From Eurosta solidaginis (taxonomy: Eukaryota; Arthropoda; Insecta; Diptera; Tephritidae), in NCBI RefSeq assembly GCF_040869045.1, contig NC_090319.1:391669601-391733600 (forward strand): 64,000 nt of DNA, in the 5' to 3' direction. The notes below the pieces were generated by a model. That model did not search any database, was not told where the DNA came from, and saw only the letters and a program-made list of their open reading frames with translations. Of the stretch, positions 8,225 through 63,935 are shown piece by piece. The position numbers and the translations under genes were made by a program. Position 1 is the first letter of the stretch. The number at the start of each line of letters is the position of its first letter.

Positions 8225-8560
8225 ATAGCTCTTCGTCGCCGATCAGACAAATCTCTCGATCTAGCCGCTGCTAGCTTCTCCAAATGAACCACCATTCTAT
8301 TTCGTGGTTTCCCAATTGTTTGTATGCGTAGATGACATCACTGATCCCCTTCAGAACTTTGTGCGGGCCTTCCCAGCTACATTGAAATTTTGAATGATCA
8401 ACTTTCCCCGGTGAGGGTTGTATAACATTACCAAATCTCCCTCAAGGAAACCTTCCGAATTGTTGTTCTTGTCGTACCTGTGTTTCATCTTGCAACTCAA
8501 TATCTTGGTTCGTTCCTTCACACTCTGTTGTTTAGCCAATGAACTACTTCGTAGGGCTCA
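8225..8560 (-). pseudogene. gypsy pol C-terminal fragment
   Basis: A frame with KMKHRYDKNNNSEGF and EGDLVMLYNPHR resembles the C-terminal domain of gypsy integrases. It matches the end of the integrase region at 1010-1200. It ends a few tens of bases before the 3' LTR and abuts the protease-proximal part of pol without the enzyme domains between. Confidence 0.75.
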
Positions 8561-8604
8561 ATCTTGACGGATTGGCTTTGCATAATCAGTATCGTTTTGA
8601 CGTT

Positions 8605-9311
8605 TCACGACAGTAGTGCGCCCTGGCTTAAAACCACACTAGCATTTTTCTGGGAAATTCTTTCCTTCGTTTTAGTGCATCCATTTGGGTTTGTCAATGG
8701 CAGTGTTTTTCTCGCAGGTACATTCGGTTTTGATTTGTTTGGCTCATTCGTCCCATCAACCTTTGCCCGATCTACCGCCTTTGACTTTTGTGGTCTTTGT
8801 CGAATTTTCTTCACCAGTACTCGCTTACTGCTGAACCCTTTCTCCAAACTGAAGTTAAGTGGTACATCCTTGTTCTTATATTGCATAATCCTTCTCTGCT
8901 ATCGATCCTGATGCTATGGTCAAATAAGATGTCCACTCCCAATATGACCATCAACTATCCCTGCCACAACGAATTTGTGTAGACCGTGACCTTTCCTATT
9001 AAGACTTCACATACCACTTTTCCCTTTACTTGGTTGTACTAGCCAGTGACCGTACGCAACCTTGCTCCAGGTAATGGCTTTACTCTCCTGTTAACCAAAC
9101 CAGATCGGATTAACGAATGAGATGCGCCCGTATATACAGTCAGTACACGCTCCTTGCCATCCACATATCCTCCAACGGTAAGACTGCTCGATTTTCTTCC
9201 GATTTGTGATACAGATATCAAGGGACATTCAACAGCTGGAGCTAGCTCTCGATCTTTACATCTGACTCGCTCTTGCCCATCTTCTCCAACTTTGTGCTTA
9301 AGACCACCCAT
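8605..9311 (-). pseudogene. gypsy protease and adjacent region
   Basis: The protease segment reads VLTVYTGASHSLIRSG. The catalytic DTG triad of retroviral-type proteases is changed to YTG, removing the active-site Asp. The remainder (8605-8886) is a Lys/Pro-rich spacer. Upstream and in another frame, at about 9345-9390, lies the zinc knuckle CFKCGKLGHIARHC. Confidence 0.75.
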
Positions 9312-58281: not shown

Positions 58282-58702
58282 TGTATATAGATAATGCTCC
58301 CACAAAACTTGGGGCAAGAGGTCAATGTAACAACACTGTCACAATTAAATTTATTGGCTCTGTTGGTGACGTAACTATTGACGTAATATTTTAATCAAAT
58401 ATTTTGTAACATGAAACCAAATATCGCTTAATGTGAAAATGTGCTTAGTCACTTTTTTTGAAGAATTGTATTTTAATGCAGTTTTAAAACTGAATTCAAA
58501 ATACATCGATAACAAGAAAAAAATATTTTAATTTTTACGTGCTGTTTGCAATGATGTGTAAATGTGCTAAGTCGTCAACTGTTCAAAAAAGATGTGCTAA
58601 GTCAACCAGTCAATAATATCAATCTGAATTACTAGTAATTTCTTTGTGCGCGCATTTTATTTACTTATTTAATTCATTCAGTCTAAAAGTACATGCTTTG
58701 TT

Positions 58703-59123
58703 GTTGTTGTATTAACGATAAAGACACTCCCCGAAGGCGTTGGGCCGATGTTGATGGTCCTTTGCCGCATATAGATCCGGTACGTTCCGGTAACAAAGCA
58801 CTATTAACGTACTACTCCGACCATCTCCGGAACGATTTATATGACCACATTAAACCTTATAGGCCATCCCGTCCTCCCCACCCCCTAGTTCCATGAGGAA
58901 GTTGGGGTCGCCAGAGCCTCGGCTGTCAATGAAACAGAATTCGCCACGGGTAGGTGAGGTTGGCAATTGGGTTGGAGAAGCCATATATTGCGCTGGGAAC
59001 CCCTTGAGAGGGTTGCCTACACAACCCCTTGAAATTGGATTCACCCAATTGAGACATACCTTTGGTGTTTGATAAATGCTTTGCGCTTACCATAATCTAC
59101 TTTAATTCTTACATGTCGATAAC
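58703..59123 (-). repeat. (CAA)n-tailed SINE copy
   Basis: On the minus strand it shows the SINE body, with GACAGCCGAGGCTCTGGCGA and CGTTAATACAACAACAACAA at the tail. A 13-base word, TACATGCTTTGTT, occurs at 58690-58702 and 59124-59136, a likely target duplication. If so, about 80 bases at the 5' end (59040-59123) are not found in the other copies. Confidence 0.75.
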
Positions 59124-59136
59124 TACATGCTTTGTT

Positions 59137-59565
59137 ACAAACTAGTTAAACATAGAAAACAATTCAAGCTTAAACTTATATAAGCTGTTATTAAAATTAA
59201 GAATACTACTGAATCGATTTGCTAGATGTATAGTCCTAGTTATAGGTTCATTCATAGCATAATTCGTTTTATTAGTTATTTAGATAAATAACACTGGGTC
59301 AACAACATTTTTGTACATGGGTCGTGCGTATATTTTTTTATTGCTTTTGCACCCAGACATAAGAATATGAACATAAAAATGTTTTTGATTTAGTTTTGTT
59401 CGAAAAAAATGAGAAAAAGGAAAAACATGAAAATTCATCAAAATTTGACATAGATTTGATTTATTCTAGTATAGTAAAAACCAATTTAAGATTTATTCTT
59501 ATAAATTTAGTTTTAGAATACAGTTTAAATGTTTAAAAATGCTTTTTCCTGCTTTTCCTGCCATA
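59137..59565. other. no recognisable feature
   Basis: AT-rich 3' flank of the transposase-like gene inside the element. No further coding sequence seen. Confidence 0.5.
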
Positions 59566-61360
59566 TTAGGTAACATTTTCTCTTATTAACGTCCAAATAT
59601 AGCCCCCCATCATGCTTTCCGTATACTGGCCTTGGTAGCGTTTCTCAAACTCCATTATATCTTGATGGAATCGCTCCCCGTGTTCTTCTGAATAAGCTCC
59701 CATATTATCTTTGAATTTATCCAGATGTGAATGTAACATGTGCATATTTAGCGATATTCTACCTCCGATGGCGGAAAATTTTTTAATCATGCCAGTTGTC
59801 AGTTCATCATAATTTTCATCCCTATGATTTCCAAGAAAGCCATGAACTACTGCCTTAAAACTGTTCCACGCTAGTTTCTCCTCATTGCTAAGTAGGTCCG
59901 GGAAATTATCGCAGTTCATAATTTTTTTTTATTTGAGGGCCAACAAAGACTCCAGCTTTAATTTTCGCCTCTGACAGCTTTGGAAAAAAGTCTGCAAATA
60001 TTTGAAAGATTTAGACTGAATATTAAGAGCCTTCATAAATTGTTTAATACGGCCCAATTTAATATGCAATGGCGGCATCAATATATTTTTAGGATAGACA
60101 ATTGCTTCATGTTTAATAATAAATCTTCCCACTCCATACTCAGTACGTCCAGGCCAATGTTTTTGGCGATAGTGGGCGGCATTTCTGCTATCCCATAGAC
60201 AAAGATAACAGACAAACACAGATGTTTGGTATATCCACCTTGCATTCCAGTAAAAAAAACAAACCATCTTGAAGTCTCCAATAACTTCCCACTTGTATTC
60301 CGTATATTTGATTGCAGTTAATAGCATTTTAATACTGTCATAATTTTCTTTGAGATGTATGGAATGTGCCAGTGGAATAGATGGAAATTTGTTCCCATTG
60401 TGTAGTAGAACTGCTTTTAGACTTTTTGTTGAGCTGTCGATAAAGAGGCGCCATTCATTTGTATTACAAGGAATACCAATTGCTTCAAATAAACCTTTCA
60501 CGTCATAGCAAAAACAGAGTCCATCTTCCTTACTGTAGAAACAAGAAAATTCTTCATGACGCTTTCTTTGCCGAGATTTTCGAACATCAGAAGTAAGTAA
60601 ATTTCGTTCTTTAAGCCGCGATGCTAATAACTCTGCTTTGTCTTTTGATAGATTTAAGTCTCTTAATAAGTCATTGAGATCTTTAGAGTTGATGAGATGT
60701 GATATTCCTGGTTCAAATTGAGGAACAAAATCGGAATGTACGGATGCAGATGAACTCGGTATTTGAAAGCTGCCTTGAGGGAATAGTTGCTTTTCCAACA
60801 GAGGTGGATCAGGTACAGGATTTTGTTCCGAATGTGGTACTGGAGCGGATGTCGATGGTAGTTCCGGATATATTGTTTTCCTTAAACGTTTCGCTTTCAG
60901 TGGTTTCACTACACAAAAATAGCAATCAGTGTCATGATTACTCGGTTCCCTCCAAATCCTCTGCACTGCGAACTGCATGGCTCTTTTCTCACCCTTATAC
61001 CAAGCTATAATAAAACGTAAAGCATTTCATAACAATTTCAGTTATTATGCAATTATATATATGTAGATATATGTATATATATATGAAACAGTTAGTACAA
61101 TAAAAAAGATAAAATAAACTTACGCTCCAGAATGCTTCTGCAAGAGTTACATAAAAACATGTGCAGCCCATTTTTTGTCCTGGTTTTTAACAGGTAGACC
61201 GAAGTAGGCTAGGTAGGTCTCGCAAATCCTTGTGTTTTTAGTTAAATCAAACTTTTTTGTCTTCTTTTAATACATTCGCCACATATATAGCAAAACGAAT
61301 TAGCCGCTCGTTTACAACTTCTCGACAAAACATAGTGTCGCCCACAACGAGTGACCCAAG
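59566..61360 (-). pseudogene. uncharacterised transposase-like gene, spliced, decayed
   Basis: Exon 1 (about 61124-61360) reads SCKRAANSFCYICGECIKRR and, after a frameshift, YFGLPVKNQDKKWAAHVF then CNSCRSILE: a Cys4-type zinc finger. A GTAAGT donor at 61123 and TTATTATAG acceptor at 61005 remove a 119-base intron in phase. Exon 2 continues WYKGEKRAMQFAVQRIWREP, DCYFC, ELPSTSAPVPH, LNLSKDKAELLASRLKERNL, WRLFIDSSTKSLKAVLLHNG, MPPLHIKLG, and in shifted frames VFVGPQI, FLGNHRDENY and EEHGERFHQDIMEFEKRYQG. I know this motif series from unnamed proteins in aphids, Hydra and other invertebrates. At least five frameshifts disable it. The HGERFHQD block may be part of a catalytic centre; that is inference. 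Confidence 0.75.
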
Positions 61361-61829
61361 AAACTACAGCGTCTTAAAAAAATTTTACTTTTAAAAACGC
61401 TATCAGGTAGCTGGCATGCTCTATTGCTAGGCCTACCAATCCGTAAGTAAAAGTTTCGATGAGTTTCTTAATATGTACTTAACGAATTGCCAATTCTACC
61501 TAAAATCATGTGTATCTGGGACCTTTTATCTCCTTTTTACTGTTTCTCAGCCACATTTTTTGTTTTTTTTTTTAGATGAGTATGTTGTGCTTTAAGTAGA
61601 TCTTTTTTCGATGCATCGCTGCATCAGGTAGCTACCCGCCGCCCTCTATCGACCGAAATAGCGCGAAAGGACCTACATTAGCCTGGTGCAAAAATGCAAA
61701 ATATTCAAATCGCTATAACTTCTACAAAACCAAATATTTTTGATTCGTAATTGCATTTTTTTTTATAGAATTGAACATAGAATCCGAATATATAGGGCAA
61801 AACCCATGTACAAAAAAAAAATTTTTTTG
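61361..61829. other. 5' region of the transposase-like gene
   Basis: Non-coding sequence between exon 1 and the LINE insertion. A short motif CAGGTAGCT(A/G) occurs at about 61404 and 61626. The start codon of the gene could not be placed. Confidence 0.4.
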
Positions 61830-62780
61830 TTGACCTGTGTAATCTATTATGCCGAAGATCACGCATTGGAATATATGGAATGAACAAATTAGATAAATCA
61901 GAGCAATTCGTGCTAACGTTTATTACATTATAGGCAAGCATGAGTGAGATTCAAGTTGTTCTGTCATGCAAAGCCTGAAGACCAAGCAATTTGCACCTGC
62001 ATATGATGGGAGGCCGTCTGGCCAATGAAGCATACGTAAAGCAATTTTTGTAAAAAATGTTTGAACTCTCTCAATTTTATAGGAGTTATATTCATAGAAT
62101 TGAGCGGCCACCGTGGTATGATGGTAGCGTGCTCCGCCTATCACACCGTATGCCCTGGGTTCGCACCCCGGGCAAAGCAACATCAAAATTTTAGAAATAA
62201 GGTTTTTCAATTAGAAGACAATTTTCTAAGCGGGGTCGCCCCTCGGCAGTGTTTGGCATGCGCTCCGGGTGTATTTCTGCCATGAAAAGCTCTCAGTGAA
62301 AACTCATCTGCCTTGCAGATGCCTTTCGGAGTCGGCATAAAACATGTAGGTCCCGTCCGGCCAATTTGTAGGGAAAATCAAGAGGAGTATGACGCAAATT
62401 GGAAGAGAAGCTCGGCCTTAGATCTCTTCGGAGGCTATCGCGCCTTACATTTATTTTTTATTTATAATATTCATAGAAAGGATTCCACGTTATTGAGCAA
62501 TATTAAAGACGACTTCTGACCAAGGATATATAAAGTGCCTTCGACGTCATAGGGTCCTTAAAGTCACTGGTGTTACGTCTACTGAACCCAAACAGTGCAA
62601 CAAATTTTGAAACAACGAAGTCAATGGTACTAGAAAAAGAGAGTTTGGAGCTAAAAATTACACTCAAGTCTTTACTCTCTTGACAACGATTAGCAGATTT
62701 AGTATTTAGTTTGTAGATAAAGTATGTGGCAGTTGTCTTTTTGGAATAAGACACAACACAGCATTGGTTTGAATTTAAAT
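61830..62780 (-). pseudogene. LINE reverse transcriptase C-terminal fragment
   Basis: Minus-strand frames read ESKDLSVIFSSKLSFSSTID, VVSKFVALFGFSRRNTSDFK and DPMTSKALYISLVRSRL. Beyond the SINE they continue FYEYNSYKIERVQTFFTKIA, LRMLHWPDGLPSY and LSNLFIPYIPMRDLRHNRLH. This is the thumb and C-terminal part of a Jockey/CR1-type ORF2. It is interrupted by a tRNA-derived SINE at 62100-62466. No catalytic core remains. Confidence 0.8.
62100..62466 (+). repeat. tRNA-derived SINE
   Basis: Exact 12-bp duplications ATATTCATAGAA at 62088-62099 and 62467-62478 fix the ends. The head is tRNA-like: an A-box-like TGGTATGATGGTAGCGTGC at about 62114 and a B-box-like GGGTTCGCACCCCG at about 62157. The body contains GGGGTCGCCCCTCGGCAGTG and GTCGGCATAAAACATGTAGG, and the tail is TTTATTTTTTATTTATA. 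I associate this SINE with tephritid flies. It lies inside the LINE fragment and is the youngest layer here. Confidence 0.88.
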
Positions 62781-63532
62781 ATAAATTATTGTCTGCGCAC
62801 CATCCGGCAAGAGTCCAGATCAGAACCGTTAGAATAGTTTGACAAATAAATAGTATTTTTTGTGAAATATATAGTTTTAGTGTTTTATTTCAATCATTAA
62901 AGGTGAGGAGTGATGGGAAAACATATTGAGTAAAAAGTGCTAAGTCAGGAGAAAAAATTTGTTATGAGTGCGGAAATTTGCTAAGTCATAAAATTGCTTT
63001 TTCAAAGCTTCTACACCCAAAAGCATTGCAATTAAGGTATCCTCATTCACAGTTTTGATAAAAGAAGGTTATTTCAAAAGTTATTAATTTTTTTCGTCTC
63101 CTGTAAAATTCGTAAAAAGTGACTTAGCACATTTTCACATTAAGCTAACGATATTCAACTTTTTCCGACCCCAAACATTTGAAATTTTTTAAATATAGTT
63201 TTTCAATACAAAAAAGTTTCAGTGCACTTACAATTTTGTACATGTGTTGTGATTCGCATTTCCATATAAAAAATTTTGAGCAGCACTGTATATAATAAAA
63301 GGCAACAAATAGGCGGCAACCTTGTAAAAACACCATAACTCCAGGAAATTTTTTAATGCGACCTAAGCGCGGTTTTTCAGTTTAACCTTACCACTTGGTT
63401 CGATAACATAAAATTCTGCTGCGCACTGAAAAACCGGGCCTTTAGTTTAATTTTTATGTTTCTCATGCATATATGTGTGTATATCTAATTAAAAATTTGC
63501 CTAGTATATTTATTTTTCTTTTCTGTCAATAG
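62781..63532. other. right end of the TIR element and distal intron
   Basis: It holds the right-hand decamer repeats and inverted end of the 58432-63139 element, then AT-rich intron. Two oppositely oriented GGTTTTTCAGT/ACTGAAAAACC words lie at 63371-63439. A pyrimidine-rich tract precedes the acceptor at 63532. Confidence 0.5.
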
Positions 63533-63869
63533 CGTTTTCCTTATATTTGACTGGAGGATTGGGCATAACTGCGGGTGCACATCGCCTTTGGGCTCATCGC
63601 TCCTACAAAGCCAAATGGCCTTTGCGCCTTATATTGATGGTTTTCAATACAATTGCCTTCCAGGATGCTGCCTATCATTGGGCGCGGGATCATCGTGTGC
63701 ATCATAAATATTCAGAAACTGATGCTGATCCACACAATGCCACACGTGGTTTCTTCTTTTCTCATATCGGTTGGCTCCTATGTAAAAAACATCCGCAAGT
63801 GAAGGCTAAAGGCAAAGGTATGGATTTGTCCGATTTACGTGCCGACAAAATTTTGATGTTCCAGAAGGA
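63533..63869 (+). CDS. Desat1: acyl-CoA delta-9 desaturase, second coding exon in window
   Basis: Begins after TTCTGTCAATAG and completes the split Ala codon from 24070. It reads AFSLYLTGGLGITAGAHRLW, with the first histidine box HRLWAH. Then comes WARDHRVHHKYSETDADPHN, with the second box HRVHH. These His residues bind the di-iron centre. WPLRLILMVFNTIAFQDAAY is part of a membrane segment. The exon ends ATG TTC CAG AAG GA|GTAAGT at 63869, phase 2. Sequence is fully conserved with fly Desat1. Confidence 0.94.
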
Positions 63870-63935
63870 GTAAGTAAATTCTGTGGACAATGAAATGAAA
63901 TTGAAATAATCACAATGCTTCTTAATTTTCTATAG

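Follow-up and report, generated by a model that had tools for sequence, protein, structure and literature searches.

A broken transposon, very probably of Chapaev3 type, nested in an older and unrelated repeat of the Eurosta solidaginis genome

The stretch of Eurosta solidaginis contig NC_090319.1 analysed here (64,000 nucleotides, hereafter the window) contains a 4.7-kb interval with inverted ends, inside which a spliced minus-strand gene carries the motifs CYIC/CNSC, DCYFC, MPPLHIKLG and HGERFHQD. The original prediction read the gene and the ends as one mobile element of an orphan transposase family with TTAA as its target. All of the motifs were present in a gene that is broken in the window, and the inverted ends were found as arms of 37 nt (58426-58462 and 63109-63145) that are 92% complementary. 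TTAA stands at 58428-58431 and 63140-63143, directly flanking inverted ends of 25 bp. However, the gene and these ends do not form one element. A transposon of 2548 bp was inserted into a repeat that is older and unrelated to it, and the ends of this repeat were taken as the transposon's own (Table 1).

The source genome (1.9 Gb, 569 contigs) gave at least 119 matches to the exon-2 frame, several being fragments of one copy, ruling out a single-copy host gene. When the best 20 other gene copies (about 10 kb each) were compared with the 4.7-kb interval, the region common to them was window ~59290-61840. The original prediction had held that homologues lacking its inverted ends would speak against it, and none of the 20 fetched copies matched the outermost ~670 or ~270 bases of the interval on either side (E <= 1e-5); scattered matches further inside were to two other repeats. 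Copy edges, once read and mapped, had ends of the form CAC[A/T]GGTCAACAA flanked by TTA or TAA (TWA). Among 21 copies (the 20 and that of the window), both ends were readable in 15, with an identical TWA at both sides in 14. A preceded and T followed TWA in 15/15, where the A of L027, with its damaged end, may be accidental. TWA was read at all 19 readable 3' ends and at 14 of 16 readable 5' ends, the exceptions being L027 (damaged 5' end) and L039 (reads ATA, no 3' end); one or both ends were missing in six copies (L025, L026, L028, L034, L039 and L041). The CAC...GTG termini held across copies with single-base variants (CAT in L035, CGC in L040, AAC in L031 and CTG at the 3' end of L022). 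Five gene matches lay within 36 kb at G000:C5:105407737-105443894, a cluster that suggests local duplication.

Three copies of the outer repeat (L042, L043 and L044) aligned with that of the window on both flanks of the inner element, the alignments overlapping by exactly 3 bp. Each had a single TAA at the place that in the window is filled by TAA, 2548 bp and TAA. These precise empty sites show that a discrete element was inserted with a 3-bp duplication. The insertion point was rearranged in a fourth copy, L065, leaving the site unreadable. The original prediction had proposed a search for shared ends and empty sites; those found had CAC...GTG termini and TWA, not TTAA.

The GT..AG intron was read in four copies. 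Exon 1 of the window copy has a frame change and exon 2 an internal stop, so this copy cannot make a full transposase. A shared frame change near residue 25 of exon 1 was found in 8 of the 20 fetched copies (L024, L026, L027, L028, L031, L032, L033 and L036), as if all derived from a single defective copy that had been mobilised in trans. The protein family comprised 2374 homologues, the transposase P0001 having 555 amino acids, and conserves D, D, C(2)C, LH, H(4)H and E. All five patterns used for C(2)C, LH, H(4)H and the DDE triad were matched by 103 of 120 listed proteins; none of the 120 had a precomputed Pfam domain. The fold modelling put forward in the original prediction gave a transposase model matching Transib/RAG1, showing a RAG1-like core fold, a shared fold that alone is not membership. 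Repetitive, bounded by defined inverted ends, flanked by a target duplication and yielding a model that matches Transib/RAG1, the orphan gene encodes a DNA transposase of predicted catalytic activity. The claim of a transposase family thus held, but not that of a family outside any superfamily, since the testable Chapaev3 hallmarks were all found. A large family of 'uncharacterized' animal proteins gains a name and exact ends, and once named as transposases these proteins need not be read as host genes.

Relatives were confirmed for none of 41 pattern matches in viral contigs and none of 61 in prokaryote genome contigs. PDB searches by sequence returned no relative. Four homologues run against each of NCBIfam and PHROGs had no hit in the former and a single weak one in the latter (phrog_11636, E 0.21). 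Neither ARAGORN nor Rfam gave a hit in the surroundings of the element. A second, distant transposase relative with 34-39% identity to P0001 was observed beside copies L026 (~1739-2601 and 8451-9157) and L029 (~8431-9293, minus strand).

The outer repeat belongs to a family that is very abundant and is marked by a long inverted repeat and by GTGCTAAGTC copies in subterminal position. Its end had 2655 genome matches at <=3 mismatches, compared with 2 for a reversed control. Within the window, the 20-mer TGTGAAAATGTGCTAAGTCA matched four times at <=3 mismatches against an expected mean of 0.01, indicating that the outer ends are beyond chance. The GTGCTAAGTC-type decamers, five on the same strand and a sixth inverted, lay as described in the original prediction; four of the six were exact, with no further exact match in 64 kb, although at 2 mismatches the pattern did not exceed its chance level (33 occurrences against 41 expected). 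Outer-repeat pairs listed on one contig spanned ~1.4 to 6.5 kb. Four full copies (L042, L043, L044 and L065) were chosen among the first 100 places listed, which lie on a single contig, the shortest being L044 (~1.4 kb); no autonomous copy was found among these four. L043 and L065 contained long open reading frames, which we take to resemble those of long interspersed nuclear elements. In viral contigs the outer end had a single exact match, which looks like chance from the 301 bases read there.

That the gene and the TGTGAAAATGTGC ends constitute one undescribed transposon targeting TTAA draws on their occurrence together in the window, but this idea now has almost no chance of being right. 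It is already refuted by the clean empty sites, where the gene part is absent from three outer copies, and the outermost sequences of the interval had no match in any of the 20 fetched gene copies. Nor is TTAA a target duplication of either element, as it would be for piggyBac or Kolobok: the inner element has TWA, and the outer inverted repeat runs on beyond TTAA as ATCGTTAGC in 13/13 fetched pairs other than that of the window (11 exact, 2 with one mismatch) and also as GCTAACGA (13/13 exact). Of these pairs, 10 were read just at their ends and the other three were L042-L044; the flanks of L044 and L045/L046 were near-identical. TTAA is therefore part of the outer repeat, whose true target duplication is either ATAT or TA. 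A nested insertion can thus produce a false composite element.

The inner element is almost certainly a degenerate Chapaev3-type cut-and-paste DNA transposon of the CMC/Transib/RAG1 group, to which RAG1, an enzyme of vertebrate immunity, also belongs; it is inserted in an older repeat of another kind. Its ends, 3-bp TWA duplication within an A-TWA-T target, precise empty site, two-exon gene and conserved motifs were observed directly; the assignment to Chapaev3 is drawn from published features. These features were CAC...GTG termini, A-TWA-T with empty sites, C(2)C/LH/H(4)H with the DDE triad, and two exons encoding about 556 amino acids. Two points weigh against this assignment and would favour another or new CMC/Transib-group lineage that resembles Chapaev3 without belonging to it: the comparison with Chapaev3 was made on published features, and the wider group, termed CMCT (PMC12730594), also has C(2)C and H(3-4)H. 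However, the element agrees with published Chapaev3 in its A-TWA-T target, its LH motif, its number of exons and the length of its protein, and Chapaev3 is also listed for a blowfly (PMC3630058). A separate lineage is highly improbable.

Transib and RAG1 excise DNA by nicking and hairpin formation, and by analogy the Chapaev3-type element was probably excised in this way. A transposase of ~555 amino acids would pair two CACWGGTCAACAA ends, which an RNase H-like DDE core folded like those of Transib and RAG1 would cut. Comparison with these proteins predicts catalysis at D259, D313 and E506 or E509. In strand transfer, the ends would be joined to target cuts with a 3-bp stagger.

The transposase carries an N-terminal C4 finger, a candidate for the Chapa finger named for Chapaev3. 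The finger fits the fold of ZAD, the domain of insect C2H2 regulators, and we infer, less surely than the above, that it is ZAD-like and helps the transposase to dimerise. We regard it as an even bet that true homology links ZAD with the zinc finger at the N terminus of Chapaev3 transposases. Matches to ZAD (zf-AD, PF07776) were below threshold where a cut-off was shown, the best being 24.7 bits against the Pfam curated cut-off of 28 bits, and some finger sequences also matched LIM, BIR, C1 and RING models weakly. When the finger was compared profile to profile with a set of just four ZADs, the match was weak (probability 9.9%, E 0.0032, 25 columns), which counts against the ZAD interpretation. 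No published link between ZAD and transposases was met in the available parts of the open-licence literature searched, in which PMC9810180 calls THAP, not ZAD, transposase-like. The genome had 149 ZAD matches, with a dense run at G000:C4 about 17-24 Mb, as in a large ZAD gene array. If the homology were true, the ZAD of a very large insect C2H2 regulator family and the finger of a RAG1-related transposase would share an origin, the host having captured a transposase domain or the transposon a host domain, and Chapaev3 transposases would dimerise through the finger. A ZAD-like finger, if confirmed, would link a RAG1-related transposase to gene regulators that form an abundant class in insects.

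Table 1. Positions of the inner element, its gene and the outer repeat in the window
Feature	Position	Strand	Basis
DNA transposon, very probably Chapaev3-type, 2548 bp, broken copy	59292..61839	gene on -	ends common to genomic copies; precise absence from three outer-repeat copies
Target-site duplication TAA, low-coordinate side, A before	59289..59291	none	
Target-site duplication TAA, high-coordinate side, T after	61840..61842	none	
Terminal inverted repeat, gene 3' end, CACTGGGTCAACAAC...	59292..59327	+	inverted arm I7; genomic copies
Terminal inverted repeat, gene 5' end, CACAGGTCAACAA... on minus strand	61797..61839	-	inverted arm I7; genomic copies
Exon 1, N-terminal C-x2-C ... C-x2-C finger, frame disrupted	61124..61333 (about)	-	limits by comparison with copy L025 and P0001
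Intron, GT..AG ends	61005..61123	-	read from sequence
Exon 2, DDE core, internal stop 59929-59931	59566..61004	-	
Outer repeat, unrelated to inner element	58421..63154	none	2655 genome end matches; end pairs
Six GTGCTAAGTC-type decamers	58441, 58564, 58594, 62937, 62978; 63121	first five +; last -	all within outer repeat (58441..63130)

Other features were seen in and beside the interval. Imperfect direct repeats at the edges of 58681-59136 and 62074-62478 (families D12 and D7), with similar sequence in several fetched loci, give these segments the look of short retroposons; neither ARAGORN nor Rfam gave a hit. A frame of 128 amino acids (62503-62889, minus strand) had no Pfam match and similar frames in L042 and L043, and resembles the end of a reverse transcriptase from a retrotransposon without long terminal repeats. 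About 0.35 kb from the outer repeat, a plus-strand frame resembled a fatty-acid desaturase exon (63505-63873; PF00487, E 1.3e-7).

Among known systems, Transib and RAG1 have a 5-bp target duplication. The inner element differs from them by its 3-bp TWA duplication and N-terminal finger, and sequence identity in the fold alignments was 10-14%. The ZAD of C2H2 regulators heads C2H2 fingers, whereas the finger here precedes a transposase core. Kapitonov and Koonin (2015; PMC4411706) placed Chapaev3 within the Transib superfamily and named its N-terminal Chapa zinc finger. Zhang et al. (2014; PMC4079192) described Chapaev3 as ending in CAC/GTG, as duplicating TWA between an A and a T, with empty sites known, and as encoding C(2)C, LH and H(4)H; the silkworm member Garfield (Garfield_BM) has 2289 bp and two exons encoding 556 amino acids. 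The likeness to Merrow and Garfield, judged on such published features, extends to the same termini, the A-TWA-T duplication, empty sites and motifs, and to two exons for 555 amino acids at a 2.3-kb scale, the element here being 2548 bp.
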